Origin: a virus
DNA: 38,417 nucleotides
Virus record (IMG/VR): IMGVR_UViG_3300025840_003904
Span: 1 to 38,417 of that record
Strand: one strand, 5' to 3'
Positions 3,395-37,288 of this stretch are shown here, one piece after another. The notes under the pieces are model-generated. The model was not told the origin of the DNA. It worked only from the letters and a program-made list of their open reading frames with translations, and did no database searches. Made by a program: the position numbers and the translations under genes. Position 1 is the first letter of the stretch, and every line of letters begins with the position of its first letter.

Positions 3395-3422
3395 TTGACT
3401 TTTTTTTAAAAAGTGATATTAT
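3395..3422 (+). promoter_or_regulatory. Sigma70-type promoter of the TonB-dependent receptor
   Basis: TTGACT at 3395-3400, 16-bp spacer, TATTAT at 3417-3422. Six bases further on is the A of ATG 3428, so the transcript is predicted to be leaderless. A perfect dyad, ACTTTTT-TTT-AAAAAGT (3398-3414), fills the spacer and could be an operator. The stretch through AGTATG closely resembles the promoter at 7705-7733. Confidence 0.6.
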
Positions 3423-3427
3423 ATAGT

Positions 3428-5038
3428 ATGCATAAAATTTTAGTAATTTTAACATTTTTATTTAGTAATATATTATTTGCAGCCGAAAACGACTGTCAAT
3501 GGGAAAATGAAACTCCTTGTATTATTATATCTAAATCAAACATAACAAACTCTAACAAAATTGGTGATAAAATTACACCAAGTATTTCTATAACAAAAAA
3601 ACAAATAGAAAAATACAATCTTATAGATTTAGCAAAAACTTTAAATTTTGTTCAAAGCTTAGAAGTATCTCAATCAGGTCCTAGAGGTCAACAAGGATCA
3701 GTTTTTTTCAGAGGCACTAATTCAAATCACGTTTTAGTTTTGTTAAATGGTATACCAATAAATGATTATTCTACACCAACAGGTGCGTTTGATATTGGCC
3801 AAGATTTTATGTTTAATGTTCAACAGATAGATGTTTATAAAGGTTCATCTGGTGCTCATTGGGGCGCTGACGCTGTGGGAGGTGCAATTAATTTTAGAAC
3901 AACTATTGATTACGATAAAAAATTAAACATTTCAGGAAATCACAACGATAAAACAATTAGTGGAAACTACTATACTAATATAAATGACTTTGATATATCC
4001 TTGTCTGCAGGACAACATCAATCAAAAAATATATCAGCACTTTCTGGTGCTAGTGAAAAAGATGGAACAGAAAATAAATCACTTTCACTAAACGTAAGTA
4101 AATGGTATGATCTTATTCACTGGAGAACAAACTTCTTTACACGAAACACATTTACCGATTTAGATGGACATAATGTACTTGTGCAAAATGATAAATGGTC
4201 CGATAATACATTTTATGCTTTTCAAACAGGACTAGATTACAAAAACAGTAGTTTAACTTTACATACACACCAATATGATAGAAACTATGATGATGATTAT
4301 TATAAAAGTCAAAACTATACACTAAAGGCTACACAACAATATGAAAACTATGGTTTTGGATTTGATTATAAACACAATGAATCATTAAACAATCAACATC
4401 ATAACTTAGGATATTTTTTTAATTTATCATATGATATATTTTCTTATCATCACAGATTTGATGAAGAACACGAAACGTATAAGTTAGGATTTTTTAAAGA
4501 AATACAAGATGGATTAAGTATAAGTGGAAGTACATCTACAAGTTATAAAGACAAAACTACCTGGACAGCTATCGAGTATGGTGAAACACAGGAATTAACG
4601 TTAACTAAAAATAATTTTTCAACAACAGTTTTTAAAAACGATATAGGTAATTTAAATACGGATGGTATTGAATTTGCTTATAATCTAAATGATATTAAAT
4701 TTTTTGCAAGTCATCTTAACAGCAAAACAAACGATACGGTAACACTAAGACGTCCTAATTGGTCACTAGGATTTATTCACAATTATGATTTTAAAAATAA
4801 CTTTTCACTAACCACAAATTACAAATATAAAGGCGAACATTTAGATGTACATAACTCTAATTGGTCAACAATCTCAATGCCTGAAACACATTTATTAGAT
4901 TTAAATATTGGTTATGATTATTATGGAATAAAATTTGGTGTAAGTGTGACAAACCTTTTAAATGAAAATTATGATTCACCACACGGATTTAACCAAGAAG
5001 GCAGAAAACTAACTTTAGGATTTAACAAATCTTTTTAA
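3428..5038 (+). CDS. TonB-dependent outer-membrane receptor, BtuB-like, 536 aa
   Basis: Outer-membrane transporter with a signal peptide (MHKILVILTFLFSNILFAA), a plug domain and a beta-barrel. The plug (residues about 50-160) carries FFRGTNSNHVLVLLNGIPIN, very close to the E. coli BtuB segment [20 protein letters not shown], and later YKGSSGAHWGADAVGGAINF. The rest alternates aromatic strands and ends in Phe, as expected for a barrel. BtuB imports cobalamin; the substrate here is inferred. At 536 aa it is shorter than BtuB. The frame also opens at GTG 3413, but ATG 3428 starts the signal peptide directly and is preferred. No clear ribosome site is present. Its stop overlaps the convergent radical SAM stop by 3 nt. 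A host-type gene in a phage tail module suggests capture from a bacterium. Confidence 0.9.
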   Translation: MHKILVILTFLFSNILFAAENDCQWENETPCIIISKSNITNSNKIGDKITPSISITKKQIEKYNLIDLAKTLNFVQSLEVSQSGPRGQQGSVFFRGTNSNHVLVLLNGIPINDYSTPTGAFDIGQDFMFNVQQIDVYKGSSGAHWGADAVGGAINFRTTIDYDKKLNISGNHNDKTISGNYYTNINDFDISLSAGQHQSKNISALSGASEKDGTENKSLSLNVSKWYDLIHWRTNFFTRNTFTDLDGHNVLVQNDKWSDNTFYAFQTGLDYKNSSLTLHTHQYDRNYDDDYYKSQNYTLKATQQYENYGFGFDYKHNESLNNQHHNLGYFFNLSYDIFSYHHRFDEEHETYKLGFFKEIQDGLSISGSTSTSYKDKTTWTAIEYGETQELTLTKNNFSTTVFKNDIGNLNTDGIEFAYNLNDIKFFASHLNSKTNDTVTLRRPNWSLGFIHNYDFKNNFSLTTNYKYKGEHLDVHNSNWSTISMPETHLLDLNIGYDYYGIKFGVSVTNLLNENYDSPHGFNQEGRKLTLGFNKSF

Positions 5039-8692: not shown

Positions 8693-9391
8693 ATGAAGAA
8701 AATATTATTAGTAAGTGGTTGTAGTTGGGGTGATTCAAATTTTACTTCTACGTTTCATCCTGAAATGGCTTGCGACTGGCCTAAATGGCCCGAATTATTA
8801 GCAAAAAAATTAGATATGGAATGTTTAAATCTTTGTAGAAGTGGTGCAGGACAAGAATACATCTATGGTGCTATTTCAGATAAAATACAAACACTTGATT
8901 CTAATAAAATTGGATATACTATTGCAGCTTGGTCAACAGCACCTAGGCGTGATTTTAACATATTTAGTACTTGGAGAAATGAAAGCAAAGATTCTAAAGG
9001 AGACATAAATTATTGGATACAAAGAAGTTTTAGATACCAATATGCATTCCAAACATTAATGGAATTTAAAAAAATACCATATCTACAATTTCAAATGATT
9101 AGTTTACACAAAGCCTATTTGCACGAATTAAGACTGTTAGATCCTAAGAATAAAAATAGATTTGATAATGAACATCAAAAAGTTTTGCACACAATAAAAA
9201 ATAGTCCTTATTATAAAAATTTTAATGATAAGTTTGTTGGTTGGCCAACAGACGAAAATATAGGCGGATTCGATATAGGATCAAAACTATTAAATGAACA
9301 ACACAGAATTTCTGAATTAGATTTAAATCCAAACACAAAAGGACAAGAAGTAATAGCAGAGTTTTTATATGAAAAAATTATTAATAGTTAG
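8693..9391 (+). CDS. SGNH hydrolase-like protein, copy 1, 232 aa (catalytic His replaced)
   Basis: First of three tandem paralogues. Block I is VSGCSWGDSNF with S11 as the likely nucleophile, block II is CLNLCRSGAGQEYIYG, and block V is SELDLNPNTKGQ. In copies 2 and 3 block V contains His before Pro-Asn; here it is Asn (N212, codon AAT), so the usual Ser-His catalysis may be lost. It lacks about 24 residues present in copies 2 and 3 in the middle of the protein. SGNH enzymes add or remove acyl groups on glycans, among other roles. Its last 23 nt overlap the start of copy 2. Family assignment is from motifs; substrate unknown. Confidence 0.65.
   Translation: MKKILLVSGCSWGDSNFTSTFHPEMACDWPKWPELLAKKLDMECLNLCRSGAGQEYIYGAISDKIQTLDSNKIGYTIAAWSTAPRRDFNIFSTWRNESKDSKGDINYWIQRSFRYQYAFQTLMEFKKIPYLQFQMISLHKAYLHELRLLDPKNKNRFDNEHQKVLHTIKNSPYYKNFNDKFVGWPTDENIGGFDIGSKLLNEQHRISELDLNPNTKGQEVIAEFLYEKIINS
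9354..9391 (+). repeat. 38-bp exact direct repeat, first copy
   Basis: Identical to 10102-10139. It spans the C-terminal codons of one SGNH copy (EFLYEKIINS, stop) and, in another frame, the first codons of the next (MKKLLIVS). The unit length is 748 bp. It records the tandem duplication of the SGNH genes. Confidence 0.85.
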
Positions 9392-10139
9392 CGGATGTAG
9401 TTATTCTGATCCAAACTTCACATCACCATTTCATCCAGAAATGTCTTGTGATTGGCCTAAATGGCCTGAATTATTAGCTGACAAAATGGGAATGGATTGT
9501 CTTAACATAAGTCGTTGTGGTGCAGGACAAGAATTTATATACAGCAACTTGGCAGACAGATTACAATCAATTGATCCAAAACAAATTGGTCTTGTAATAG
9601 CAGCTTGGTCAACAGCACCTAGACGTGACTACTCTGTAAAAAATTATTGGACTAATGATATGTTTGATAGTCGTGGAGATATAGAATATTGGATTAAAAG
9701 ATCACTTAGATATTATTATAGTTTTCAAAATATGTGTGAAACACTAAAAATTCCTTATAGACAATTTCAAATGATACATCTATTTAAGGGTTATATATGG
9801 CAACAACTTGTGACCGCAAGAACAAAAAATATGCCTGATGAACTATTAAAACAAATTCCAATATTAAATGCCAAACATCAACTAACAAATGACGAAATAA
9901 ACTGGAAAGAGCGTATTGAAAATACATATCTAAAAATAATACATAATAGTCCATATTTTAATAAGATAAATGATAATTTTATTGGATGGCCAACAGACAC
10001 AAAATATAATGGTTATTCGGTAGCTGAATACAAATTAAATAACAAAACAGATCGAATATCTGAACTAGATTTACATCCAAATGCAAGTGGACAAACTATA
10101 TTAGCAGAGTTTTTATATGAAAAAATTATTAATAGTTAG
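9369..10139 (+). CDS. SGNH hydrolase-like protein, copy 2, 256 aa
   Basis: Second tandem copy. Block I VSGCSYSDPNF (S11), block II CLNISRCGAGQEFIY, conserved AAWSTAPRRDY, and block V SELDLHPNASGQ with H236. Its key residues are intact, though block I has Cys where classic GDSL enzymes have Asp. Opening residues after the start (DWPKWPELLADK) are nearly the same as in copy 1. The start lies inside copy 1's last 23 nt. A role as O-acyltransferase or esterase on a glycan is inferred from the neighbouring aminotransferase and glycosyltransferases. Confidence 0.7.
   Translation: MKKLLIVSGCSYSDPNFTSPFHPEMSCDWPKWPELLADKMGMDCLNISRCGAGQEFIYSNLADRLQSIDPKQIGLVIAAWSTAPRRDYSVKNYWTNDMFDSRGDIEYWIKRSLRYYYSFQNMCETLKIPYRQFQMIHLFKGYIWQQLVTARTKNMPDELLKQIPILNAKHQLTNDEINWKERIENTYLKIIHNSPYFNKINDNFIGWPTDTKYNGYSVAEYKLNNKTDRISELDLHPNASGQTILAEFLYEKIINS
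10102..10139 (+). repeat. 38-bp exact direct repeat, second copy
   Basis: Second copy of the 9354-9391 repeat at the junction of SGNH copies 2 and 3, with the same 23-nt reading-frame overlap. Confidence 0.85.
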
Positions 10140-10887
10140 TGGTGATAGTTATACAGCAAATAATTACAAGTCTATTTTACATCCTGAATTAGATATATCT
10201 TGGCCTGTGTGGCCAGAACTTTTAGCAGATAGACTTAATATGGAATGTATTAACTTGGCAAATGCAGGTTCTGGTAATGAATTTATATACTCATCATTAC
10301 TAGACAAAATAAACACAATAGAAAATAAAAAAAGTATAGGTTTAGTTTTAGCTGCGTGGTCTCAAGCACAAAGAAAAGACTTTGAAGAAGGATGTAAAAT
10401 TAAAAAATGGAAGTCTTATAGAATAGATTCAAGTGGAGATATATTTGGATGGACAAGAAAAAGTATAAGAAACTTTATCAATTTACAACTTTTATGTGAA
10501 TATTTTAATTTACCTTACAAACAATTTCAAATGATAAGACTATATGAAGACTATGTAACAGGCTTAAGACCTAGTCATAAACAAATTATTGAAAACAACT
10601 ATGATGGTAATTATAGACTTACATATAATGGTAATAAATCTGAGGATATAATAAGTTTGTTTAATATAACAACAGAATATAAAAATACATTAAACATTAA
10701 AAATTTTTTAGGTTGGCCAATCATAGAACAGTTTTCAGGCTATTCTATTGCAAACAAAGTTTTAAAAACTAAAATAAATAATATTGATGTTTGGGATTCA
10801 AATTTAATTATTTCTGATTTAGATCACCATCCAAACGCAAAAGGCCAACAAAAATTAATGGAGTACATATATGACAGGTTGGGATAG
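10117..10887 (+). CDS. SGNH hydrolase-like protein, copy 3, 256 aa
   Basis: Third and most diverged copy, with the most canonical block I (VSGDSYTANNY; G9-D10-S11), block II CINLANAGSGNEFIY, and block V ISDLDHHPNAKGQ with H238. WPVWPELLADRLNMEC matches the common N-terminal segment of the other copies. Its ending (EYIYDRLG) differs from EFLYEKIINS of copies 1 and 2, and it overlaps the aminotransferase start by 17 nt. It is probably the active representative of the family and nearest the ancestral member; substrate unknown. Confidence 0.72.
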   Translation: MKKLLIVSGDSYTANNYKSILHPELDISWPVWPELLADRLNMECINLANAGSGNEFIYSSLLDKINTIENKKSIGLVLAAWSQAQRKDFEEGCKIKKWKSYRIDSSGDIFGWTRKSIRNFINLQLLCEYFNLPYKQFQMIRLYEDYVTGLRPSHKQIIENNYDGNYRLTYNGNKSEDIISLFNITTEYKNTLNIKNFLGWPIIEQFSGYSIANKVLKTKINNIDVWDSNLIISDLDHHPNAKGQQKLMEYIYDRLG

Positions 10888-11923
10888 AGATTATCTAGCA
10901 AACAAAGAAGAATACTTAAAACTTTTTGATAATATAATGCAAAAAGAAAACGAAAGAAATATTGAGTTTTTAGAAGAAAGTATTTTAAAAATTATTAATA
11001 GAAAATATGCTATAGCTTGTGCGAGTGGTACAGACGCATTGCATTTTTCACTTATTGCATTAGACATTAAACCAGGTGACGAAGTATTAACTACAAACTT
11101 TTCTTGGATATCTACAGCCTCTTGTATAACGATGGTAGGTGCAACACCTGTATTTTGTGATGTTGATTTAGAAACTTATCATATGTCAATTGATAGTATT
11201 AAACGTATGTATTCTGATAAAGTAAAGGCAATAGTGTACCCACACCTGTTTGGTAATATATCAGATATGACAGAAATACAAAACTTTTGTGAAGATAAAA
11301 ACATAAAACTAATAGAGGATGCTTGTCAATCATTTGGTGCAAATAGAAATGGTCAGTATGCAGGAACGTATGGTGATGTTGCAACATTAAGTTTTAATGC
11401 AAACAAACCAGTTGCAGGTATATCTGGAGGTGGTGCGTTTCTTACAGATGATAAAGAACAGGCAAATCTAGTAAGAAAATTAAGAAGACACGGTAACAAT
11501 GAAGTATTAGGTTATAACTCTAAAATGTTAGCGATCAATGCTGAATTTATTAATTTTAGAATAGAAAAAATGCACGAATGGCAAGATAAAAGATTTAGAA
11601 TAGCTAAAAGATATGATAACAATTTAAAAGATATAGTTACACTTCAAAAAATAGATGAAGGTGTTAATCATTGTTATCACAAATATGTTATTAAAGTTGA
11701 AAATAAAGAAATAAGAGAAATCTTAAAGAAAAGACTAGGGGCAAGTGTACATTATCCTAATCCTATATCAGAAAATGCAATGTATAATTCTATTATACAT
11801 AGAAAAGACAGGTGCTTGAATAGTCAACAAATATGTGATACAATATTAACATTACCTATTCATCCGTATCTAACAAATGATGAAATAGATAATACTTGTA
11901 ATATAATAATGGCCACAATATGA
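10871..11923 (+). CDS. DegT/DnrJ/EryC1/StrS sugar aminotransferase, 350 aa
   Basis: PLP enzyme that aminates a keto-sugar nucleotide. YAIACASGTDALHFSLIAL (46-64) is the cofactor phosphate loop. PGDEVLTTNFSWISTASCI is the family signature. IEDACQSFGA gives D150 and Q153. LSFNANKPVAGISGGGAF places the Schiff-base lysine at K179. HLFGNISDM and a C-terminal SVHYPNPI (usually VHYPxPLH) also match. Length is near the family norm of about 370. It starts inside SGNH copy 3 and ends in an ATGA overlap with the next gene. It supplies an amino-sugar that the SGNH proteins might acylate (inference). Confidence 0.9.
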   Translation: MTGWDRDYLANKEEYLKLFDNIMQKENERNIEFLEESILKIINRKYAIACASGTDALHFSLIALDIKPGDEVLTTNFSWISTASCITMVGATPVFCDVDLETYHMSIDSIKRMYSDKVKAIVYPHLFGNISDMTEIQNFCEDKNIKLIEDACQSFGANRNGQYAGTYGDVATLSFNANKPVAGISGGGAFLTDDKEQANLVRKLRRHGNNEVLGYNSKMLAINAEFINFRIEKMHEWQDKRFRIAKRYDNNLKDIVTLQKIDEGVNHCYHKYVIKVENKEIREILKKRLGASVHYPNPISENAMYNSIIHRKDRCLNSQQICDTILTLPIHPYLTNDEIDNTCNIIMATI

Positions 11924-12222
11924 TAGAACACAACGAAACTGTAACTCAATTTAGCTACATTGACAAAGATAATAATATGGTTAATATAACTGACCAAATG
12001 CCAATTGAATTTTGTCAAAGTGTTCACAAACTTATAGGTGGTAATATTATAGATGAAAGTTTAATTAATGAAAATACTGAAGATATTTACGATTATATAA
12101 TTGAAAAGTTATATACTCGTCCAGAGTATATGGAAAACAACGTTGAATTTAAATCTAAACATAAAATAAAAATAGCCTTTAACAAATTTATTTTTAAAAT
12201 AATTAATAAAATAGTAAAATGA
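11920..12222 (+). CDS. Unknown small protein, 100 aa
   Basis: Not recognised. Acidic first 70 residues with YIDKDNNMVNITDQMP, SVHKLIGGNIIDES and EDIYDYIIEKLY, then a lysine- and isoleucine-rich tail (IKIAFNKFIFKIINKIVK) that could form an amphipathic helix. Both junctions are 4-nt ATGA overlaps, so it is translated with the aminotransferase and the radical SAM enzyme that follows. A partner or carrier for that enzyme is possible; no PqqD-like recognition motif or obvious precursor pattern is visible. The frame is supported by tight packing only. Confidence 0.6.
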   Translation: MIEHNETVTQFSYIDKDNNMVNITDQMPIEFCQSVHKLIGGNIIDESLINENTEDIYDYIIEKLYTRPEYMENNVEFKSKHKIKIAFNKFIFKIINKIVK

Positions 12223-13055
12223 AAACCTTAGAAGAAATACAAGAAAATTATTTAGCTGTAGATTTCTTTTTATCTATGTCGTGTAATAAAAATTGTCATT
12301 ACTGTACAAGTTATACACTAGAGATGAGAAATCTAACAGTAGATATGGATTTTTTAAAAAAAGTTTTAGACTATTTAAAAGATTATAAAATAAGAGTATG
12401 TTTACTTGGAGGTGAACCTGGACTTATTAAAAACTTAAATGATGTCATAAATGAAATTAAAAAATATCCTAATTTTGTTTGTTCAGTACTTTCAAATTCT
12501 TTTATACGTAAAAGATATCCACACATACTAAAAGATAAAGAAATACTTTATGTTGAACATAACATATTAGACTGGTACGAACACGAAGTTACAAAACTTG
12601 GAAATTTTGATTTTATACCTGAAAATGACTATAACAATTATAATGTGGTAGTACAAACACCGAATTACTTTAAATATAAAGACAAGTATCCTGAAATATT
12701 AAAAAAATTAGAACATAAAAATACAATGTGGAAATCATTTAATGGTAGAACACCAAACAAAGATGATGTGTTAGCAGTACACGAACAAGCTGCTGAAATA
12801 GATCGTAAGATGTGTGCAGCTTTTCCTATGGTACCTGTGATAGATTTTGAAAAAAAACATATAGTACATTGTAGTAAAAAGTTTGCTAATAATGATGAAC
12901 TTTCAAAAACATTTGAACTAACAAAAGAAAACATTGATAAAATGATGAACTTTAGATTATTTAAATATGAAAGTTATTGTAAAACTTGTACTGAATGGGT
13001 ACAGCCTAAAGGACATTTTCCTTTAAGAAAATATGGAAAGGTATTAAATGGTTGA
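12219..13055 (+). CDS. Radical SAM enzyme, 278 aa
   Basis: C22-x3-C26-x2-C29 (MSCNKNCHYCTSY) binds the SAM 4Fe-4S cluster, and LLGGEPGL (63-70) is the conserved SAM-binding loop. A later cluster of cysteines includes C254 and C257 (YCKTCTEW) and an HCSKKF segment, suggesting an auxiliary iron-sulphur site of SPASM or twitch type. Substrate unknown. It overlaps the 100-aa gene (ATGA) and the next radical SAM core gene (8 nt). Distinct in sequence from the other radical SAM proteins of the cluster. Confidence 0.82.
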   Translation: MKTLEEIQENYLAVDFFLSMSCNKNCHYCTSYTLEMRNLTVDMDFLKKVLDYLKDYKIRVCLLGGEPGLIKNLNDVINEIKKYPNFVCSVLSNSFIRKRYPHILKDKEILYVEHNILDWYEHEVTKLGNFDFIPENDYNNYNVVVQTPNYFKYKDKYPEILKKLEHKNTMWKSFNGRTPNKDDVLAVHEQAAEIDRKMCAAFPMVPVIDFEKKHIVHCSKKFANNDELSKTFELTKENIDKMMNFRLFKYESYCKTCTEWVQPKGHFPLRKYGKVLNG

Positions 13056-13710
13056 TAATATAGAAAAAGAAAAAAAATTAAATACATTTTTTAACAGAAA
13101 AACAATAAACATTGATATTTCTTTTAGATGTCCACTGGAGTGTCCTAGATGTCAAAGACAAACTTATTTTAAAGACAGAGGACTAAAAGTGCATGGATAC
13201 GATTTATCATTAAATGAAATAGAAAAATTATCTAATTTTTTTACAAGATTTGCATTTTGTGGTCAGTTATCAGATCCTGTTCATCATCCTAAATTCCCAG
13301 AAATATTAAAAATATTACATAAAAAAAATGTTAGATGTGAAATACATAATGCAGCTAGTCAAAAATCAATAGACTACTATATTGAATGTTTTAAAGCAAA
13401 CCCAAATGCTGAGTGGGTGTTTGCGTTGGATGGATTGCCAAAAGATAGTCACAAGTATAGAATTAATCAAAACGGTGAGAAAATGTTTCAAATTATATGT
13501 GAGTCTAAAAAATATCTAAAAAGAGCACCAATATGGCAATATATTGTTTTTAGTTATAATGAAAATGATATTAAAACAGCTCAAGAATTAGCTAAAAAGA
13601 ACGGAATTACATTTTTATTACTACAATCCTCAAGGTGGTTAAGTGATGATGATCCATATAAACCAAAAAACAAAGAATTAGCTTTAGATGCCAAAACAGA
13701 AACTAGATAA
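13048..13710 (+). CDS. Radical SAM core without its SPASM domain, 220 aa
   Basis: C28-x3-C32-x2-C35 (RCPLECPRC) starts the barrel, followed by FAFCGQLSDPVHHPKF, EIHNAASQ, FALDGLPKDSHKYRI and WQYIVFSYNENDI. The last two blocks recur in the intact 323-aa paralogue at 19134-20105 (DGLPKDSHKYRI identical). There the protein continues into a SPASM domain. Here it stops after residue 220, and a SPASM-like protein starts 23 nt earlier in another frame. It is thus a split enzyme, or a gene broken by a frameshift. The short core should still bind SAM but probably needs the next protein or proteins for auxiliary clusters. Confidence 0.8.
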   Translation: MVDNIEKEKKLNTFFNRKTINIDISFRCPLECPRCQRQTYFKDRGLKVHGYDLSLNEIEKLSNFFTRFAFCGQLSDPVHHPKFPEILKILHKKNVRCEIHNAASQKSIDYYIECFKANPNAEWVFALDGLPKDSHKYRINQNGEKMFQIICESKKYLKRAPIWQYIVFSYNENDIKTAQELAKKNGITFLLLQSSRWLSDDDPYKPKNKELALDAKTETR

Positions 13711-14137
13711 ATCTTTAGAACATAAACCATTTAAATATAGGGTTGAGAAAGCTATTAAAGGTAAAATAAAATTAGAACCAAAATGTATGATTACACCTGA
13801 AGACAAAAGACAAGAGGAGATTAAAATGGTGGCAGTAACAAATAGAGGCCATTTATTGCCTTGTTGTTGGTTAGACAATCCAAACATTTTAGATCACCCA
13901 ACTATGAAAAAATTATTAAAAGTGAGTAAAATAAGTGAACATAATTCAGTAGAAGATATTTTAAATTCGAAAGTTTGGCTTGATTTTGCTAAAAACCTAA
14001 TTGAGTCTGAAGATAATATGGATAAAATTTTATGGCCTTGTATTCATCATTGCAGAAAAAGAGAAGACAAAGACAAATATAGAATAGATACATATTTTGA
14101 CGATACAGGAAACATAATAGATAGGATTGTTAATTGA
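13688..14137 (+). CDS. Free-standing SPASM-like domain, copy 1, 149 aa
   Basis: Matches the C-terminal part of the intact radical SAM-SPASM paralogue. KCM (C33), TNRGHLLPCCWLD (C59, C60) and PCIHHC (C118, C122) are typical auxiliary-cluster cysteines. GHxLPCCWL is the signature shared with the 19134-20105 protein. The ATG lies inside the end of the radical SAM core gene (+1 frame). Since the tandem copy 2 begins with the same MPKQ-x-x-DKSLEHKPFKY under its own ATG, this start seems real. It probably acts with the 220-aa core. It ends TGATATG onto copy 2. Confidence 0.72.
   Translation: MPKQKLDKSLEHKPFKYRVEKAIKGKIKLEPKCMITPEDKRQEEIKMVAVTNRGHLLPCCWLDNPNILDHPTMKKLLKVSKISEHNSVEDILNSKVWLDFAKNLIESEDNMDKILWPCIHHCRKREDKDKYRIDTYFDDTGNIIDRIVN
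13911..13947 (+). repeat. 37-bp exact direct repeat within SPASM copy 1
   Basis: Identical to 14362-14398, 451 bp away, which is also the spacing between the two SPASM start codons. It codes for LLKVSKISEHNS. It supports a fairly recent tandem duplication of this gene. Confidence 0.85.
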
Positions 14138-14138
14138 T

Positions 14139-14579
14139 ATGCCAAAGCAAGAACGAGATAAAAGTTTAGAACATAAACCATTTAAATATAGGGTTGGTAA
14201 ACCTATTCCAAAAGAAATAGAAATGCAACCAAAATGTATGGTTGAAAGAAATGAAGAAAAATCAATTAATACTCAACAGGCAGCAGTTACAAATAGAGGC
14301 CATCTAATTCCTTGTTGTTGGTTAGATGAACATCAAACTTTAAATCATCCAATTATGATAGAATTATTAAAAGTGAGTAAAATAAGTGAACATAATTCGA
14401 TAGAAGATATTTTAAAAACAAATGAGTGGACTAATTTTGCTAAAAATTTAGCTGAAAATAATATGGATAAAGTTTTACCTAGTTGTATTCATCATTGCAG
14501 AAAAAGAGATAACAAGGACAAAATAAAAAAAGAAACCTACTTTAAGGACGGAAAAGTTAAAAGTAAAAATATTGTGTAA
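14139..14579 (+). CDS. Free-standing SPASM-like domain, copy 2, 146 aa
   Basis: Tandem duplicate of the preceding gene. It keeps all five cysteines: C33, C59, C60 (GHLIPCCWLD), C116 and C120 (SCIHHC). The frame is open from a TTG at 14127, but the ATG at 14139 aligns exactly with the start of copy 1 and is chosen. It follows the copy 1 stop by one base (TGATATG). Either the two modules are alternative partners of the one radical SAM core, or one is redundant. A 37-bp stretch is identical in DNA to copy 1, while other parts have diverged. Confidence 0.72.
   Translation: MPKQERDKSLEHKPFKYRVGKPIPKEIEMQPKCMVERNEEKSINTQQAAVTNRGHLIPCCWLDEHQTLNHPIMIELLKVSKISEHNSIEDILKTNEWTNFAKNLAENNMDKVLPSCIHHCRKRDNKDKIKKETYFKDGKVKSKNIV
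14362..14398 (+). repeat. 37-bp exact direct repeat within SPASM copy 2
   Basis: Second copy of the 13911-13947 repeat. Confidence 0.85.
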
Positions 14580-14597: not shown

Positions 14598-16103
14598 ATG
14601 AAAATTTACAGCGTTGCATTAAACTTACACGACCACAATACATATGATGGAAACTATCACAATCAAAGAGAGCGTCATACCAGATTTAAACACAATCTTC
14701 CATATCACGCTGAAGCTTATGCTCACCAATCTGATATATTAAATCCTAAAGATTATAGATTAAATGATGAGTTTGTTAGTGAATACTTTAAAAAGAGAGA
14801 TGGAGATGATGTTTTAGCGTTTACGTACACTCTAGGTGGTATTAGAAAATCAAAAGATGAACTTTTTAACACTATATTAAAAGATCATAAAGAAATACTT
14901 AATTATGAACCTAAAAAACTTTGGGATCATTATTATAAAGATGGAATTTATTATATAGATCATCATCAATCTCACGCCGCATATGCCTTTATTAATTCAG
15001 GCTTTGAAGAGTCTGATATATTAGCTATTGATGGAATAGGTTCAAAATATAGATGTGTATTTTTTGATAAGGATAAAAATATGATAGACTTATCTGATAA
15101 GTTGCCAATAGGATGGTTATGGAATCATATGTCTAATCTTACAGGATTCGGAACACTCGGTGCAAGTAAATTAATGGGCAAAGTTGGATATGGTAAATTT
15201 AATCAATATTATTATGATTTTTTAGATACAGTATTATCTGGACCTATTTTAGAAAAAAAACAAAATTGGCCATTTGTACCAATCTATGGTATTGATGATC
15301 TAGCATATACACTACAACAAATTACCATTGACAAACTTAAAGAGTACATATGGCCTTTAAAGACTTGTGAAAATTTATGTATTGCAGGAGGTGTTGCTTA
15401 TAATGGTTATATGAATGAGAGATTTACAAACCACTATATGAATGAAGTGTATGTACCGCCTGCTGTTGGGGATGAAGGTCAGGCCATAGGTACATATCAA
15501 CACGCTGACTATGTTTTAAATCAAAATATACACAAATCACAAACATACGCTGGAGTTGAATATGATTATGTTGGTGAAGAAAAGGCAGATTATAAAGAAG
15601 TTGCACAAGCAATTGCTGATGGTAAAATAGTAGGTTGGTTTCAAGGTAAATCTGAAAGTGGTAATAGGGCATTAGGTAATAGAAGCATATTAGCAGATCC
15701 TCGTAATCCAGATATAAAAGACATTATTAATCACACCATTAAGATGAGAGAAGACTTTAGACCTTTTGCACCAGCTGTACTAGAAGAACATTATAAAGAA
15801 TACTTTAAAACAAGATTTCCTAGTCCATATATGAGTAGAATATGTAAAGTTAAAACAGATAAAGTTCCAGGAATTACACACGTTGATGGCACCGCTAGAA
15901 TACAAACTGTTAATAAAGAATTTAATGAAAAGTTTTATAATATTATAAATGAGTTTTATAAAATAACAGGAATTCCAATGCTATTGAACACAAGTTTTAA
16001 CTGTCAGGAACCTATAGTAGAAACACCTGAGCAAGCTATAAGAACCTTTAAAAGAACAGCATTAGATATTTTAGTAATAAATAATTACATAATAAGAAAA
16101 TAA
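14598..16103 (+). CDS. NodU/CmcH-type O-carbamoyltransferase, 501 aa
   Basis: Transfers a carbamoyl group from carbamoyl phosphate to a hydroxyl, usually on a sugar. The Kae1-like N-domain has IDHHQSHAAYAF (H122, H126, metal/adenylate site), ILAIDGIGS, a LGASKLMGKVGYG loop (usually GxxKLMGLAPYG) and NLCIAGGVAYN. The C-domain has GKIVGWFQGKSESGNRALGNRSILADPR, REDFRPFAPAVLEE and GIPMLLNTSFN, all strong family signatures. Length is a little below the usual 550-600. It follows the SPASM gene by 18 nt with its own ribosome site, and its TAA is followed by the nitroreductase-like start as TAATATG. Family certain; acceptor unknown, presumably a glycan made by this operon. Confidence 0.93.
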   Translation: MKIYSVALNLHDHNTYDGNYHNQRERHTRFKHNLPYHAEAYAHQSDILNPKDYRLNDEFVSEYFKKRDGDDVLAFTYTLGGIRKSKDELFNTILKDHKEILNYEPKKLWDHYYKDGIYYIDHHQSHAAYAFINSGFEESDILAIDGIGSKYRCVFFDKDKNMIDLSDKLPIGWLWNHMSNLTGFGTLGASKLMGKVGYGKFNQYYYDFLDTVLSGPILEKKQNWPFVPIYGIDDLAYTLQQITIDKLKEYIWPLKTCENLCIAGGVAYNGYMNERFTNHYMNEVYVPPAVGDEGQAIGTYQHADYVLNQNIHKSQTYAGVEYDYVGEEKADYKEVAQAIADGKIVGWFQGKSESGNRALGNRSILADPRNPDIKDIINHTIKMREDFRPFAPAVLEEHYKEYFKTRFPSPYMSRICKVKTDKVPGITHVDGTARIQTVNKEFNEKFYNIINEFYKITGIPMLLNTSFNCQEPIVETPEQAIRTFKRTALDILVINNYIIRK

Positions 16104-18374: not shown

Positions 18375-19134
18375 GATATGTACTGTTTACTTTGAAGGAT
18401 TATATAAACCAGAATATGTATCAAAACTCTATAGATCACTAAAAAGAAACTCTACAGTACCTTTTGAATTTATCTGTATTAGTGATAATAAAAATATTGA
18501 AGCTGACGTCATATTACCATATAATCACCTTGGTGATATTAAACGACACTGGCATAAATTAAAATTTTTCAGTCCACAATTTGCATATCAACAACCTGGT
18601 GATGATATTATTATTATGGACATTGATCAAGTAATAGTAAACAATGTTGATGATATATTAAAATGGGAAGTAAAAGAAAACGAATTAGTTACTTATGAAA
18701 ATTGGTGGAATAGTAAACCAAATCCATTTGCAGCTGTAAATCCATTACCTATTAACGGAGGTTTTTACAAGTTTAAATCAGGAAGTTTAAAATTTATATG
18801 GGATGAATTTTCTTTAAATCCTGAATACTGGCAATTACATTATTATAACAAAGGTGATGTACATTATAAGTATTATGGAGAACAAAATTATGTAAACTGG
18901 AAACTAGAAGAACACAATTGTGTAATTAATAAACTACCAGCTCAATGGATTGGTAAATATGCTGATACAAATAGGGAAAATATAGTACTTAACAAAATGT
19001 ATTCTACAAAGTTTAATACTGACTTTATGATATTGGATGATGTCAATGATAATATTAAAATAGTACACTTTTTAGGTGTTGGAAAAGTGATACACGGTAA
19101 TAATGATAGTTTTATAGAAAAACATTGGAAATAA
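18367..19134 (+). CDS. GT-A glycosyltransferase-like protein, 255 aa
   Basis: Opening MIKICTVYFEGLYKPEYVSKL and PFEFICISDN, then DDIIIMDIDQVIVNN with D85-x-D87, then INGGFYKFKSG and IKIVHFLGVGKVIHG. The HF-x-G-x-x-K ending is typical of GT8-like retaining transferases. It differs clearly from the 286-aa and 192-aa enzymes, so three DxD transferases probably act in turn. Its TAA overlaps the next ATG by one base (TAATG). Confidence 0.78.
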   Translation: MIKICTVYFEGLYKPEYVSKLYRSLKRNSTVPFEFICISDNKNIEADVILPYNHLGDIKRHWHKLKFFSPQFAYQQPGDDIIIMDIDQVIVNNVDDILKWEVKENELVTYENWWNSKPNPFAAVNPLPINGGFYKFKSGSLKFIWDEFSLNPEYWQLHYYNKGDVHYKYYGEQNYVNWKLEEHNCVINKLPAQWIGKYADTNRENIVLNKMYSTKFNTDFMILDDVNDNIKIVHFLGVGKVIHGNNDSFIEKHWK

Positions 19135-20105
19135 TGGAAAAAATATTTAAAGATAAAGGTATTAACATAGACGCAGGTAATAAATGCACTTTAGAGTGTG
19201 CAGCTTGTGCCCGCCAACAGTATAAAAACATTGGTAGAAAGATTCCTGGAAACGATTTAACACCTGAACAATTTGATAAATTAACTGCTCATTTTAAAAA
19301 AGTTTCTTTTTGTGGAACATTCTCAGATCCAATTTTCAATCCTTATTTTTTAGATATATTAAAAATATGCAAAGAAAAAAATATCAAAACAAAAATTAGT
19401 ACAGCAGCGTCACAAAGACCTATATCTTGGTATCAAAAGGCCTTTGATACATATGATAAAGCTTTATGGGTTTTTGGCATAGATGGATTGCCTAAAGATA
19501 GTCATAAGTATAGAATACATCAAAAAGGAGAATATCTTTTTGACATAATGCTAATGGCAAAATCTCAAAATATACCTGTAGAATGGCAATATATTGTTTT
19601 TGATTATAATAAAGATGATGTAGAAGAAGCTAAAAAAATAGCAAAAAAACACAAAATACGATTAACTCTTATTTTTTCACACAGAAATGTATCTACTAAT
19701 AATAAAAAAATAGAAAATATAAACGATAAAAAAGAAATAGAAAGTGTTATTTTAGAAAAAGAAACTAAAATTGTATATAAATCTAACGTTATATCTAATA
19801 CAGAAACAAAAAGTTTTAAACCTAAATGTATCCATACTAATAGAGATTTATCTTTTTCTAACACAGGTCATATATTACCTTGTTGTTGGTTAAATACTCA
19901 AAACAAAGAAACTGAAATATCTAAATTATTTGATAGTAAACTTCATATAGATAATAATACGGTAGAAGAAATTTTAAATAGTGAAGATTGGAAAAACTTT
20001 TTTAACATATTAAAAAATGATTCTTCTAAAGTACCGTTTAAATGTAGAAGTAATTGTACCAATGATTTAAATGACAATCCAGAAGAAACTAAAATAAATA
20101 TATGA
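19134..20105 (+). CDS. Radical SAM-SPASM protein, 323 aa, intact paralogue of the split pair
   Basis: Core C18-x3-C22-x2-C25 (KCTLECAACARQQ), VSFCGTFSDP, STAASQRPISWY, IDGLPKDSHKYRI and WQYIVFDYNKDDV, followed in the same frame by a SPASM part with KCIHTN, GHILPCCWL (about 245-253) and KCRSNC (about 303-308). This is the one-piece version of 13048-13710 plus 13688-14137. The frame is open from TTG 19125, but ATG 19134 overlapping the upstream TAA is the likely start. Similar free enzymes occur near glycan genes in phages; the reaction is unknown. Ends ATGA with the next gene. Confidence 0.85.
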   Translation: MEKIFKDKGINIDAGNKCTLECAACARQQYKNIGRKIPGNDLTPEQFDKLTAHFKKVSFCGTFSDPIFNPYFLDILKICKEKNIKTKISTAASQRPISWYQKAFDTYDKALWVFGIDGLPKDSHKYRIHQKGEYLFDIMLMAKSQNIPVEWQYIVFDYNKDDVEEAKKIAKKHKIRLTLIFSHRNVSTNNKKIENINDKKEIESVILEKETKIVYKSNVISNTETKSFKPKCIHTNRDLSFSNTGHILPCCWLNTQNKETEISKLFDSKLHIDNNTVEEILNSEDWKNFFNILKNDSSKVPFKCRSNCTNDLNDNPEETKINI

Positions 20106-23988: not shown

Positions 23989-26900
23989 TTAGATAGCCAA
24001 TGCAATACCTCTCATATCTCTCAATACAGGTGGATATGATGAATTGGTTCCTTTCATTACTATTTTTAGTTGGAATGATGTAAAGTCGTGTATATCATTA
24101 GCAGTAAATTTGTATTCTTTAAATGTGCTATCGTCTTCAGCAGGTGTAATTGAAATATCTGAACTACCGTCTGTGTTAAATGGTGTCCAACTTATATCAT
24201 CCAATTGTCTTTCTTCATCTGGTCCTGAAACTCTATAATACATTTCTACTTCAGATGTCGCTCTGATATTTGCAGTTAATCTTATATCCAATGCCTTAGA
24301 ATTGTTTTCTAAAATAATTGGTTTAGTACAATAAACAGCAGCTGATGATGTACCTAAATTATTAGTGTCATCCAAATAGTCAGGTGTATTAGATGAAGTA
24401 GGACTATTTAATCTGTTTGCAATTGTAAACACACTCATTCTTTGTGTATCTAATACTGGAGATATTTTAGTGTTTGTTGTTGTTAATTCTAAGATTGTGT
24501 AGAAAGATTTACCAGAACCTTGAGCGGCAACTCCTAATACAGTATCTCCAGATTCATTTATTTCACTTGCAACCATCTGAGGTGCAGTAAAGAATAAGTT
24601 ATCGTTGTTTACTACAGCAAGTTTGTTTGCAGCTGATGTTAAAGTAAATTGTGTTTCTGAACCGTGTACTGATTTACCAGTAGATGTTCTTACATAATAA
24701 TCTATATTTGTTCCTGGAACAACCATAGTTTGAATACCACCTAAGTTTAATACATCAAAAATTCTATTTTGAGTTGCTGTAACTGTAGCACCTCCAATGT
24801 CGCCTGTAGCACTAGCAGTTCCAGAAGCGAGTGTAATATCGTAACTATCTAAAGTAATATTTGAAATACTTGTATATGTTCCGTTAATTGGATCTGTAGT
24901 AGTATCAATACCATTATAAGTTCCGCTTGGTATACCAGCAATTGTAACATTGTTATCAGTTCCGTGCATACCGTGATTTGGATGGAATACTCTAATAACT
25001 GACGAGCCATTTGTTGTTCTTAAAGGATTATTTTTAAGTGTTCTTGTAGATAAAGTATCATTTGTTAAAGTAACTGTACCTGTAACTTGACTAAATTCTG
25101 CTCTTCTTAGTTTAAACTTCATATCTTCATTTTGTTCAGCAGACCAAGTCATACCGTTTTGAGATTTAAATAATACACCAGCATAAGGTTGAGCAGATAT
25201 GGTTCTATTTGAGTCTAATGATGTTTCGCCTATTCTTGCTACATAAGCATTGTAATCTTGTGAGTTAGCCATTACAACAAAACAGTATTCTATATTGTTT
25301 TGTATATAAACTGGACTTGGGAATGTAAATTTAGTTGCGACTGTACCATCTGTACTTGTATTTACTGAACCAGGATTTAAAGTAACTTCTGAGAATGGTA
25401 ATATTTTTTGTCCTGGATAACCGTTAACAACATCTCTAATTTGTACTGTAACTGGTATAGCACTATCTTTTGTACTAAAGAATATGTCAATTGAAGTTAA
25501 GAATACACCACCTTCATCATCAATTAAGAATGTTTGTGCTAAAGGATCGTGGTAACCAACTTGTCTTTCTTCCGTTCTTGTAGATGTTCTTGTGATAGAT
25601 TGTGTTTCAGTAACACTTCTCATTTCAACACGAGCTTCTCTACTTGATAAAATAGTTTCCCTTACAGTTTCTAATAATCCTCTTGCAACGTACTCAACGT
25701 TTGCCGCTGTTTCTACATTTGCATTTGTTAAACTGTTTGAAGAAGAACTTGTTAATCTGAATAGTCGTTGACCTGTTCTCCATCTAGGATTTGCGTCAAC
25801 TTTTGGATCAGGTATTGCAAAAGTACCTGTTACTGAACCATTAGCGTCTGTAACTAAATTACCTCCTAAAGAACCACCGTCAGGTGTTACGTATGAGGCA
25901 ATATTAATATTATCAAAGAATGGATATACTCTTGTATTTGGTTTTAATCTTGTTGCATTAAATGTAATTGTTCTACTTCTTATAAACGGAACAAAGGCAA
26001 CTGAAACAACTCTATCACCAATAGATGTTCTAATTGTTTCTGGTACAGCAACAGCTCTAATACCTGTTCTTGTTTGTGAAACTTGTTGTGCAGTAGTGAC
26101 TTCTTGTCTAGCAATAACTCTCCAACCATGGCCACCTCTTACCTCATAAGTTCCAATATCACGTCTTTCTGTTTCTATAGGTCTTCCTGTCCAAGTATCT
26201 TGCCAAGAATTCCAAACTGTACTCATAGGAAATTCAGATAACTGACCACTATTACCAGATTGTTTTGTTAAGTTATCCCAACTACCATTAGGGTTGTTGA
26301 TAACTAATTCTGGAGCTCTTTCTGTTTCTTTCCATTCATCACCTGGAGGTGTTAATTCTATTGACCCTATCCAAGTAAATACTCCAAATGGGTTTACATT
26401 AATAGCTTTACTTGCATATGGTTGATCAATTAAAGTAGCTTCTGTGTAAGGTAAGGTAATAAGATCACCTGTTTTTTGATAGTTTGCAGTTGTTCTATCA
26501 CTATTAACAATTTCTGTACCATCATCATCTCTTTCAATTAATTTGACAGCATCTTCGTGGAATGTAGGACGCAATTCACCTTTTGCATAATCTATTGAAA
26601 CTTTATAATCTTTATTTCCAACATCGCCTATATTATGACCTGTAAAATTATCTACGACAAATCCATTTTTAAATCTATCAAAACCATTTGCGTCTTGTAT
26701 TTGTAAATTTTGTGCAGCTGTTTCTAAAAGAGATAATTGAGTATAGTATTCAACTGTGTCAATTCTACTTTCAATACGACCAATATCTCTCATTGTGTAT
26801 CGTTTATTATCAACGTGTTCAATACCTACATCGGAAGTATCTAATGTGTATGCTGGTAAAAATAATGTGTATAGGTGCATAGCATTATCTAAAGTACCTG

Positions 26901-29900
26901 GAACTCTTGGTGCTATTGAACTAGCACCTTTTACAACTTTAAAATTACCATCTTTGTCTAAAAATATTTTATCTACTCTTCCTAAATAATATTCAAAATC
27001 TGATCTTATATCAGAATTAAATTTAATAGGTTGTACTGTTGAGGCACCTGTGCCATCAAACGATCTGTCTTGTACTCCTGAATTAATTGTAGAAGCGTCA
27101 TCAACTCTTGGTCTAAAATCTAAACTATCTCTTAACTCATATCTCACACCTGTTGTAGATGAAGTATATGCTGGTATATCCTCATAATTAATTGCTGAAT
27201 ATGAATCAACATCAAAGTAATCACCTGAACTATGAGTAAAATAATCAAAATCAATTAATAGTCGGCCTGTTGGTGTTACTTCACCATCTTTTAATTTTAT
27301 TCTACCAATGTCATAAAAATTATCTCTTTGACCATTGTCTAAATCAAATCTACTTGTAATATTTGTATCACTTGTAGTTGCAGCTGTTGAAAAATCAGCA
27401 GCCATATAAACTGCATTTATTTGATAAACGTCTGCTTTTGCAAGACCTATTGTACCACTTTCAATTGTAGTTTGATCTGTTATTGCAACCTGTGAACCTG
27501 TTGTTAAAGATTTTGTTTTTGATGTACCTACTGATTTGTTTATAGTTAGTAAAGCCTTTATATCGTGTGAAGCATAATTAGCACCAAAGTCAATTGTTAA
27601 TTGTGTTTTTGCAACATTTAAGGTAAAAATTGAAGTACCTTCGTGGTTGTTTCCTGTTAAACTTAAAACATCTCCAACGGCACCTGAACCACCAGAACCT
27701 AATGATGTTATTGAAATTGAAAAATCACTTTCTGATAAATCAGCAAACGTTTCATCTACACCTGCATTAAATGTTCCAATACCATCTCCAGTTAAAGATT
27801 TAATTTCGTGTTTTCTAAAAGTATATGTTGTATCTGAAGCATTACTGTTAGCAGTTGTTTTTAATGTTTTTATATTAGTATAAGGTAGTTTAAATATAGA
27901 AACATTTTTTTCAGGTGATTGTGATTTTGCACGTCTTCTTGTTACAATTGTTTTTGTAGAAGCAGCTGCAGTTACACTTGATAATGTCAAACTTGAATTT
28001 GAAATAATAGCTTCTACTATTTTTGTTTCTGTATTTCCACTATCATTTGTAAATGAAATTGAGTCACCAACTTTTAATTCTTCAGTAAATCTTGTATTAA
28101 TACCTTGTACATCAGCAGAACCTGAACCAACGTCAATTGATCCAGTTAAAACAAAGTTATCTCCATTTGTAGCATCTAATGCTGTATCAGCAGTAAATGT
28201 TGGACTACCAGCCATTGCAATTTGTTTAACCGATGGTAAATCAAATGATGTAACACCTTTTAAACCAACAGCGTCTGATTGAATAACTGCTGTGTTACTT
28301 GATGTGCCGCCTGTAATAGTTTCTCCAGCAACAAAGTCACCTTGTACATTTGAAATTACAACAACTCCATGTGCAGCTGTTCCACCTGAACTATAAGCAG
28401 TGAACGCTGATGAATCTATAGATGTTGTTCCGTCTGTGCCATATAATTCAAATGTTGTACCTGATGGATTTCTAACCGTATAAACATTACCATTAACTTC
28501 AGTCATACCAGATACACTTGAAATTGTAACTTGTTGACCTTCTTTAAAATTGTTGTTTGCTGTAACTACAGCAGGATCAGCTTGAGTAATACCTGTAATT
28601 GTAGCACTTTCAGTTGTAGAGTGTGTTTGTACAACACCTGTTGCACCTGATGTGCCACCTGTTACAATTTCTCCATCATTAAATGATTGAGCTGTTCTAA
28701 TATTTAAATGAGTAAACAAAACAATATCAAAAAGATAATGTTTGTAAATTGCACTTGTTAAACTTGAACTTGAAAAAATATTTGCCGAAGCAGTACCAGA
28801 TGAATATTCAAAACCTCTACTTTTTGCTCTTCCTATTTGTGTTACGGAAGATTCTGTTCCTGTATTTACAGTACCACGTGAACTTGTAGCCACGTTATGG
28901 AGAGTTAATCCTTTAAATGGTTCAATACCTGACGCAGAAGCAATATCTGGTGTACCATAAACGTTTGTTACGTTAACATAGTTACCAATATCAAATCTTG
29001 TACTAAAATTATTTTGTGTATCGAAATCTCTAGCCTTATCTACATCAATGTAAGTAGTAGCTATAGTATCTATTTCATAACCTTTTACATATGCTTTTCC
29101 TGGAGAAAATCCTACAGCAAGTTTAGTAGTATCACCACCGTTTGCTGATGTATAGATACCTCTATTATTACCTGATGCTAAATGTTCTCTAACATCAATA
29201 TCAAAAGGTCTAACAACATAGTCACCAGACTCGTCATATGTTCTTCTTGCTAATGTATCTTCTAAAACAGCATATTCAGTTGATCTAACTTGATTTTGCA
29301 ACGTACCACTTGATAGTCTTAACAATTCATAAAAGTTTGTATCTTCGGTACTTGATAATCCTTTTTTAGCTAATGTAAGAAGAATTTTAAATCTGTGAGC
29401 ACCTGGAGCGTTTGTATTTGAAACACCTTGTGCATTGTCATTTAAACTTGAATCATCTCCTGGAGTTACAAAAGATTCTGTAACTGTTAAACCAACTCTA
29501 TAACTAGGTGTGTTTGAATATTTGTCTAAGATTAAAGTTTGTGCTGACACTTGAACGTGAAAACCATTAATATAATAAACACCTTCTTGTATTTGTGCAG
29601 CTGAACCTGTAGCAGTTGTATCAACAACAACAGTTGGATTACCTGAACCGTCCGATGTTAAAGTTTCACCATCTGAAAAGGCTATTGTTGTATTGTCAGT
29701 ACTGTTTGTGTTAAAATATTTTACAAATAATGTATCTGGATCAGTACCGTCAGTTGCGACAGCGTTTATAACTTTTGCAGTTACGCCTGAAGTCCCGCCA
29801 GTTAATTTTGTACCAACGTATGTAGATAAACTTGAAGCTGATTTAGAAGTAAGTTTTACAGCATAGTATTTTAAATCATACCCAATTTCACCAGGTATAA

Positions 29901-30087
29901 TCATTGCACCTTTGTCAAAAAGGTGATCTGATACTCTTTCTATTTGATTTTGTAGTTGAGTTTGAACTTGTGTTAATTCTCTAGCTTGAACAGCAAATGC
30001 AGGTCTAAAAAGTATTCTGTGAAACTTTTTCGACTCTGTAAAATCGTCATAGTAAGGACTGACATTAAAATCAGTTGGACTTGGCAT
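23989..30087 (-). CDS. Giant DUF4815-type structural protein, 2032 aa
   Basis: The N-terminus (FNVSPYYDDFTESKKFHRIL, then FRPAFAVQARELTQVQTQLQ and NQIERVSDHLFDKGAMIIPG) is the DUF4815 signature of marine myovirus baseplate/fibre proteins. Inside are several G-E-x-I-T-G-G-T-S repeats (for example GEIVTGGTSGATGVV and GETITGGTSSNTAVI), a Pro/Arg-rich centre, and YHDPLAQTFLIDDEGGVFLT about two-thirds along, a beta-domain marker of this family. It takes the position of the T4 gp9-gp12 connector/fibre genes. GGGGA precedes the ATG. It likely bridges baseplate and fibres. The single uninterrupted frame of over 6 kb is intact. Confidence 0.85.
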   Translation of the reverse strand: MPSPTDFNVSPYYDDFTESKKFHRILFRPAFAVQARELTQVQTQLQNQIERVSDHLFDKGAMIIPGEIGYDLKYYAVKLTSKSASSLSTYVGTKLTGGTSGVTAKVINAVATDGTDPDTLFVKYFNTNSTDNTTIAFSDGETLTSDGSGNPTVVVDTTATGSAAQIQEGVYYINGFHVQVSAQTLILDKYSNTPSYRVGLTVTESFVTPGDDSSLNDNAQGVSNTNAPGAHRFKILLTLAKKGLSSTEDTNFYELLRLSSGTLQNQVRSTEYAVLEDTLARRTYDESGDYVVRPFDIDVREHLASGNNRGIYTSANGGDTTKLAVGFSPGKAYVKGYEIDTIATTYIDVDKARDFDTQNNFSTRFDIGNYVNVTNVYGTPDIASASGIEPFKGLTLHNVATSSRGTVNTGTESSVTQIGRAKSRGFEYSSGTASANIFSSSSLTSAIYKHYLFDIVLFTHLNIRTAQSFNDGEIVTGGTSGATGVVQTHSTTESATITGITQADPAVVTANNNFKEGQQVTISSVSGMTEVNGNVYTVRNPSGTTFELYGTDGTTSIDSSAFTAYSSGGTAAHGVVVISNVQGDFVAGETITGGTSSNTAVIQSDAVGLKGVTSFDLPSVKQIAMAGSPTFTADTALDATNGDNFVLTGSIDVGSGSADVQGINTRFTEELKVGDSISFTNDSGNTETKIVEAIISNSSLTLSSVTAAASTKTIVTRRRAKSQSPEKNVSIFKLPYTNIKTLKTTANSNASDTTYTFRKHEIKSLTGDGIGTFNAGVDETFADLSESDFSISITSLGSGGSGAVGDVLSLTGNNHEGTSIFTLNVAKTQLTIDFGANYASHDIKALLTINKSVGTSKTKSLTTGSQVAITDQTTIESGTIGLAKADVYQINAVYMAADFSTAATTSDTNITSRFDLDNGQRDNFYDIGRIKLKDGEVTPTGRLLIDFDYFTHSSGDYFDVDSYSAINYEDIPAYTSSTTGVRYELRDSLDFRPRVDDASTINSGVQDRSFDGTGASTVQPIKFNSDIRSDFEYYLGRVDKIFLDKDGNFKVVKGASSIAPRVPGTLDNAMHLYTLFLPAYTLDTSDVGIEHVDNKRYTMRDIGRIESRIDTVEYYTQLSLLETAAQNLQIQDANGFDRFKNGFVVDNFTGHNIGDVGNKDYKVSIDYAKGELRPTFHEDAVKLIERDDDGTEIVNSDRTTANYQKTGDLITLPYTEATLIDQPYASKAINVNPFGVFTWIGSIELTPPGDEWKETERAPELVINNPNGSWDNLTKQSGNSGQLSEFPMSTVWNSWQDTWTGRPIETERRDIGTYEVRGGHGWRVIARQEVTTAQQVSQTRTGIRAVAVPETIRTSIGDRVVSVAFVPFIRSRTITFNATRLKPNTRVYPFFDNINIASYVTPDGGSLGGNLVTDANGSVTGTFAIPDPKVDANPRWRTGQRLFRLTSSSSNSLTNANVETAANVEYVARGLLETVRETILSSREARVEMRSVTETQSITRTSTRTEERQVGYHDPLAQTFLIDDEGGVFLTSIDIFFSTKDSAIPVTVQIRDVVNGYPGQKILPFSEVTLNPGSVNTSTDGTVATKFTFPSPVYIQNNIEYCFVVMANSQDYNAYVARIGETSLDSNRTISAQPYAGVLFKSQNGMTWSAEQNEDMKFKLRRAEFSQVTGTVTLTNDTLSTRTLKNNPLRTTNGSSVIRVFHPNHGMHGTDNNVTIAGIPSGTYNGIDTTTDPINGTYTSISNITLDSYDITLASGTASATGDIGGATVTATQNRIFDVLNLGGIQTMVVPGTNIDYYVRTSTGKSVHGSETQFTLTSAANKLAVVNNDNLFFTAPQMVASEINESGDTVLGVAAQGSGKSFYTILELTTTNTKISPVLDTQRMSVFTIANRLNSPTSSNTPDYLDDTNNLGTSSAAVYCTKPIILENNSKALDIRLTANIRATSEVEMYYRVSGPDEERQLDDISWTPFNTDGSSDISITPAEDDSTFKEYKFTANDIHDFTSFQLKIVMKGTNSSYPPVLRDMRGIALAI

Positions 30088-30103
30088 TATCTATTTTCCC
30101 CTA

Positions 30104-31600: not shown

Positions 31601-31617
31601 TTCTTATTCCTCATTTA

Positions 31618-31625
31618 TATTTATA
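31618..31625 (-). promoter_or_regulatory. T4-type late promoter box of gp8
   Basis: Exact TATAAATA on the minus strand. Predicted start near 31612, so the 12-nt leader begins with the GAGGA ribosome site of gp8. Confidence 0.75.
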
Positions 31626-31634
31626 ATCATTTTA

Positions 31635-32789: not shown

Positions 32790-32802
32790 ATCTCTCTCTT
32801 AC

Positions 32803-32810: not shown

Positions 32811-32812
32811 TG

Positions 32813-35425: not shown

Positions 35426-35430
35426 TTCAT

Positions 35431-37287: not shown

Positions 37288-37288
37288 T

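Follow-up and report, generated by a model that had tools for sequence, protein, structure and literature searches.

The split genes lie in a window of 38,417 nucleotides, the whole stretch analysed here (positions 1 to 38,417 of IMG/VR virus record IMGVR_UViG_3300025840_003904). A radical SAM core of 220 residues ends within the start of a second reading frame that encodes a free-standing SPASM/twitch module (SP1), and another such module (SP2) follows directly. A one-piece paralogue is found further along the window. The features are listed below, all on the + strand; counts of loci refer to a profile census of 121 loci.

10871..11923, + strand: DegT/PseC-like nucleotide-sugar aminotransferase (Pfam E 2e-82; in 95 of 121 loci).
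12219..13055, + strand: second radical SAM enzyme type of the cassette, with its own C-terminal Cys set (Pfam Radical_SAM E 5e-9; in 84 of 121 loci).
13048..13710, + strand: split radical SAM core, 220 aa, an ORF with CxxxCxxC at residues 28-35 (phrog_21308 E 2.4e-15; weak Pfam Radical_SAM match).
13129..13152, + strand: core motif stretch, residues 28-35, read from the sequence and invariant in the alignments.
13688..13710, + strand: overlap of core end and SP1 start, 23 nt in different frames, read from the sequence.
13688..14137, + strand: SP1, free-standing SPASM/twitch module, 149 aa, Cys 33, 59, 60, 118 and 122 (orthologues in L022 and L023; isolate counterpart Mosig_00085).
13911..13947, + strand: 37-bp block, first copy, in SP1; identical to 14362-14398 at an offset of 451 (codon alignment).
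14139..14579, + strand: SP2, second free-standing module, 146 aa from the ATG (MPKQ), Cys 33, 59, 60, 116 and 120.
14362..14398, + strand: 37-bp block, second copy, in SP2 (codon alignment).
14598..16103, + strand: NodU-like carbamoyltransferase, directly 3′ of SP2 (Pfam E 5e-68; phrog_1601; in 58 loci).
19134..20105, + strand: one-piece paralogue, core and module in 323 aa (fused relatives L194-L196; split close relative L197).

SP1 begins at ATG 13688, in frame +1 relative to the core, with an in-frame TAG (13685-13687) immediately upstream. The ATG of SP2 at 14139 lies one base on from the SP1 stop, and the mechanical ORF start of SP2 is a same-frame TTG at 14127. Both modules share the MPKQ start and all five cysteines. 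The layout of core, overlap and two modules, the five cysteines, the 37-bp block repeated 451 bp apart and the paralogue had been described in a sequence-only reading of this DNA, and all are present in the sequence. These residues are conserved beyond what chance would give: across 119 distinct modules the five cysteines reach 97-100% conservation, and the core CxxxCxxC (C28, C32 and C35) reaches 100% across 122 distinct cores.

This motif, together with the partial TIM-barrel fold of the model described below, places the core among radical SAM enzymes. The modules are harder to classify from profiles. Pfam SPASM (PF13186) scores SP1 at 15.9, SP2 at 17.5 and the fused copy at 19.8 bits, all under the gathering score of 21.5. 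The sub-threshold matches of SP1 and SP2 are real; because they fall below the cut-off, it is cysteine conservation and fold that carry the family assignment of the modules. The seven-cysteine SPASM motif, which serves two auxiliary clusters, is absent from the 119 modules, which conserve just five. The module is thus better described as twitch-like, probably with one auxiliary cluster, than as a full SPASM domain. Its Cys and GxxxxC pattern is kept.

Matches to structural gene families flank the cassette, with tail-fibre and other structural families at 57-2453 and T4-like baseplate and other structural families among the ORFs of 24000-38037, so the split genes belong to a myophage and have tail-fibre-like genes on one side and baseplate genes on the other. 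This position resembles the hypervariable region of pelagimyophages, for which cassettes containing radical SAM genes have been described (PMC7029224). Besides the aminotransferase, the carbamoyltransferase and the second radical SAM type, methyltransferase- and glycosyltransferase-like genes recur beside phage core-module pairs, and 52 phage loci carry a gene labelled nitroreductase-like, a label taken from the Mosig annotation. Three consecutive genes of one cluster in the window (8693-10887) are labelled SGNH-hydrolase-like from a GCSY/GCSW motif; Pfam and NCBIfam searches of these genes gave no match. The 541-aa ORF at 3413-5038 encodes the plug domain of a TonB-dependent receptor (Pfam E 8e-19).

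At L047:13409-16282, a single chain of 957 aa combines a twitch-like domain at its N-terminus with a radical SAM domain and a NodU-like carbamoyltransferase, and proteins of its cluster lie near split pairs in 26 loci. A phage SufT/MIP18-like Fe-S assembly protein (L077:4775-5071; PF01883, E 1e-16) is encoded directly 3′ of the second core-module pair, and its cluster is present in 12 loci. A PP-loop ATPase ORF (L004:3042-3833) closes with sequence that resembles the end of the SGNH-like gene next to it in L003, which looks as though a deletion had joined the two.

The split is old, widespread and the rule among these phages. The census covers mostly marine T4-like phage contigs from IMG/VR, the isolate Pelagibacter phage Mosig and some bacterial contigs, and contains 165 cores and 164 modules. 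Core and module are separate genes for all but 4 of the 165 cores, in a census whose split-core seeds bias it toward split forms; the C-terminal module of known SPASM/twitch enzymes, an extension of the same chain, is thus found here as a separate protein. A scan seeded with the fused copy recovered fused relatives at 5 loci and split relatives at 4, the window's own sequence apart. Copy number of core and module is 1:1 in 74 of the 121 loci and 2:2 in 34. Of the module ORFs that adjoin a core, 62 are offset by +1 and 29 by +2; the overlaps measure 1 to 98 nt, and there are two small gaps. In other loci the module precedes the core or is separated from it by other genes (L154, L156, L157, L096 and L098), and in L154, L156 and L157 it is far from a core. 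Megablast of the region against phage genomes gave no match. Bacterial genomes gave few positives: 2 among 397 of one order, and 1 among 398 sampled from one phylum. Two MAG contigs of Hyphomicrobiales carry the core-module pair by itself (L171:7980-8932 and L172:7953-8920), among housekeeping genes and with no glycan genes; the L172 pair is downstream of an ORF judged guaA-like from its sequence start.

The nearest isolate is Pelagibacter phage Mosig EXVC030M, whose host is HTCC1062. As in the window, its genome carries a split pair in the same kind of cassette (Mosig_00084 and Mosig_00085, with identities of 56% and 41%). The two proteins, of 211 and 112 aa, are annotated as separate genes with an 8-nt overlap; the annotation goes no further than 'putative molybdenum cofactor biosynthesis enzyme' for one and 'hypothetical protein' for the other. 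Unlike the window, Mosig has a single module.

A short overlap, with a +1 offset that is consistent in the closest relatives, is also what a sequencing or assembly error would leave, or a programmed frameshift that joins both frames into one enzyme. We regard either as vanishingly improbable, since the split recurs in the isolate genome and in more than 100 contigs. Furthermore, the offset takes both values, +1 and +2, the overlap varies between 1 and 98 nt, and some modules precede the core or have genes in between; this excludes an indel artefact or programmed frameshift as the general explanation. An indel that restores one frame, which the sequence-only reading had named as a possible objection, does not fit a split whose conservation extends over two frames and more than one gene order; the other objection, that relatives might all be fused with a single SPASM, fails as well, as the relatives are mostly split. 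The split is real and the separate start of SP1 is used. A pseudogene reading of the split was ruled out by the same conservation in Mosig and the contigs, the two offsets and the several gene orders.

We then modelled core and SP1 joined as one chain, with the GCCA at the overlap treated as one step, using AlphaFold2 with 76 relatives. This gave a confident, twitch/SPASM-like model (pLDDT 91.2, pTM 0.89), with pLDDT below 50 only at junction residues 216-230, although few rows of the underlying alignment span both parts. Full-length alignments link the model to MoaA and SuiB (both Z 16.9), SkfB (Z 16.6), BlsE (Z 16.3), DesII (Z 16.1) and BtrN (Z 13.8). Modelling as one chain favours contact, so the fold supports core-SP1 contact and does not prove it. 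SP2 modelled alone reached pLDDT 80 and pTM 0.64. The only PDB matches of this model at Z >=2 are BtrN entries, 4m7s at a weak Z of 3.1 and 4m7t at Z 2.5; the first covers 74 residues of the BtrN twitch region (166-239) with an rmsd of 2.6 Å and 27% identity. A PDB sequence search with the module profile returned chance hits only (for example TIM9, E 0.18), and no usable SP2 match came from Foldseek by itself. The matches reported by VIA and Foldseek carry no information on function.

Comparison with known enzymes places the pair near SPASM/twitch radical SAM proteins. BtrN (PDB 4M7T/4M7S) has the same core fold, and its Cys pairs are similarly spaced, whereas it is one chain and acts on an aminocyclitol; measured across the full model, identity is only about 13%. 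BlsE, DesII, MoaA, SkfB, SuiB and anSME are SPASM/twitch radical SAM enzymes to which the model aligns along its length at Z 16-17; unlike the split pair, they were solved as one chain with a C-terminal extension, and the SPASM members bind two auxiliary clusters. The best NCBIfam match of the cores and the fused paralogue is TIGR04317, the tungsten cofactor oxidoreductase radical SAM maturase W_rSAM_matur, at 24-38 bits. This is a one-chain family, and the window core (31.3 bits) and the fused copy (37.5 bits) fall far below its cut-off of 380. NF033640 (N_Twi_rSAM, N-terminal twitch radical SAM) shares the C...PCC...CxxC module and is present in neighbouring genes of the same cassettes, whereas its module is fused at the N-terminus; a bacterial SP module scores 16.4 bits against its cut-off of 170. 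Published accounts treat SPASM and twitch domains as additions to the C-terminus of the radical SAM chain (PMC9012708, PMC10470005), and a search of open-licence PMC papers for split radical SAM, standalone SPASM or N-terminal twitch turned up none with a SPASM/twitch module as a separate protein. The two-gene form appears to be new; SPASM/twitch radical SAM enzymes themselves are known as one chain.

Core and module evolve together. Distances among cores and among their adjacent modules give a mirror correlation of 0.73, against a permuted maximum of 0.18, a value partly explained by the shared ancestry of whole genomes. Where a genome carries two pairs, 71 of the 82 comparisons that could be resolved have core and module pointing to the same partner pair. 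From the correlation and this agreement, pairs are mostly inherited as cognate units. We therefore consider it likely that core and SP form a two-subunit radical SAM/twitch enzyme, a reading supported by the conserved motifs, the mostly 1:1 co-evolving pairs, repeated natural fusion and fission, and the confident one-chain model. The alternative is that the free-standing module acts as an independent Fe-S electron carrier or cluster donor and not as a subunit. Its own gene, at times far from a core (L154, L156 and L157), and the SufT-like Fe-S assembly gene that adjoins pairs in some loci are in keeping with such a role, as is the requirement of PapB for electron transfer between molecules (PMC10470005). 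However, repeated natural fusions to the core, pair-specific co-evolution and the twitch-domain position of the module in the one-chain model make this quite improbable.

For the two-subunit enzyme, we infer the complex, the cluster count and the chemistry as follows. The core subunit, a partial TIM barrel, would bind the catalytic [4Fe-4S] cluster and SAM, while the separately translated SP would bind one auxiliary [4Fe-4S] cluster via four of the five invariant cysteines. SP would occupy the docking site on the core that the C-terminal twitch domain takes up in the one-chain enzymes BtrN, MoaA and BlsE. SAM cleavage on the core would then generate a substrate radical, from which the SP cluster would most likely take an electron, as proposed for BtrN; by this analogy, SP may serve its electron role in trans. 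The auxiliary cluster of BtrN is thought, and that of SuiB has been observed, to accept an electron from the substrate radical (PMC9012708).

The structural neighbours BlsE, DesII and BtrN act on sugars or aminocyclitols, and for BtrN the action on a sugar/aminocyclitol-type substrate is documented (PMC9012708). The genes around the pairs, encoding a DegT aminotransferase, a carbamoyltransferase and methyltransferase- and glycosyltransferase-like proteins, suggest a substrate en route to a modified surface sugar. The likely role is a radical reaction of a sugar-like compound within a pathway for surface modification, and the phage cassette probably modifies surface sugars.

The core tree indicates that the fused and split states have interchanged at least four times. 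L197 is split and its nearest relative, L196, is fused, with a core identity of 79%. Within this otherwise fused group, L197:2992-3911 represents a clean fission in which core and module share one base. This alternation on the tree leaves the one-piece gene at 19134 without support as the parent form; it belongs to a separate branch where fused and split forms interchange. In the module tree, the window, L022 and L023 group together twice, once by their SP2 copies (clade support 96) and once by their SP1 copies (100). Synonymous divergence between SP1 and SP2 is 0.36-0.53, and between either and the single module of L025 about 0.95. The L025 module already has the MPKQ start and is more diverged from SP1 and SP2 than these are mutually, so the separate start predates the duplication, as the sequence-only reading had argued. 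The related contigs in which that reading had proposed to look for the split and the duplication confirm the first as widespread; apart from the window and its identical contig, an extra module, one more than the cores, is confined to the two related phages L022 and L023. In L022, a PP-loop gene and a gene of the SGNH-like cluster separate the two modules, both of which are intact.

We compared the three SP2 copies (window 14139-14579, L022:10594-11034 and L023:2563-3003) and found 19-25 nonsynonymous against 1-2 synonymous changes. Between the window and L022 the ratio is 23 nonsynonymous to 1 synonymous for SP2 and 26:22 for SP1 (Fisher P 0.0003). Few of the changes fall on positions with a family conservation of >=40% (4 of 61 sites, P 0.002); for positions conserved at >=60%, avoidance is not significant (P 0.20). 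This fast change may reflect relaxed or positive selection, either of which is compatible with three sequences. Synonymous divergence of SP2 is far below that of the neighbouring core, and this difference hints at a recent exchange of SP2 between phages. A diversity-generating retroelement behind the changes is unsupported, as they are not confined to adenines in the codon alignment (judged by eye).

The excess of nonsynonymous changes could mark SP2 as a leftover duplicate under relaxed selection and without function, as could its lack of a core of its own in the available sequence. We consider this unlikely: the SP2 ORF is intact in three phages and two gene orders, and the retention of all five cysteines, together with variation that spares family-conserved positions, disfavours a dead copy. 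SP2 is probably a retained paralogous SP subunit, an alternative subunit for the same core or for another. A more specific proposal, made at the outset from the sequence, is that one core has two exchangeable auxiliary-cluster modules, with SP1 and SP2 docking alternately on the 13048 core and shifting its substrate or redox properties. Consistent with this, the window, L022 and L023 each hold one more module than cores, the SP1 and SP2 clades are each common to the three phages, and SP2 keeps its cysteines and conserved sites while other sites change fast. However, elsewhere pairs are cognate and 1:1, the contigs are partial, so that a core belonging to SP2 may lie elsewhere, and the L022 SP2 is located away from the core. 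The proposal is not borne out by the census, where the extra module is confined to these few genomes, and we consider it unlikely. That one catalytic subunit would thereby gain two activities or redox settings, from SP1 and a fast-evolving, interchangeable SP2, is likewise doubtful.

The roles of SPASM and twitch domains are still disputed. A natural two-subunit form would allow the auxiliary cluster to be added, omitted or swapped without mutating the enzyme, making its role directly testable. The two-module arrangement is a clade-specific oddity; if a core with interchangeable SP1 and SP2 proved true, it would amount to combinatorial radical SAM enzymes. More broadly, phages of abundant marine bacteria keep at least one such core-module pair in cassettes that are probably for surface modification.
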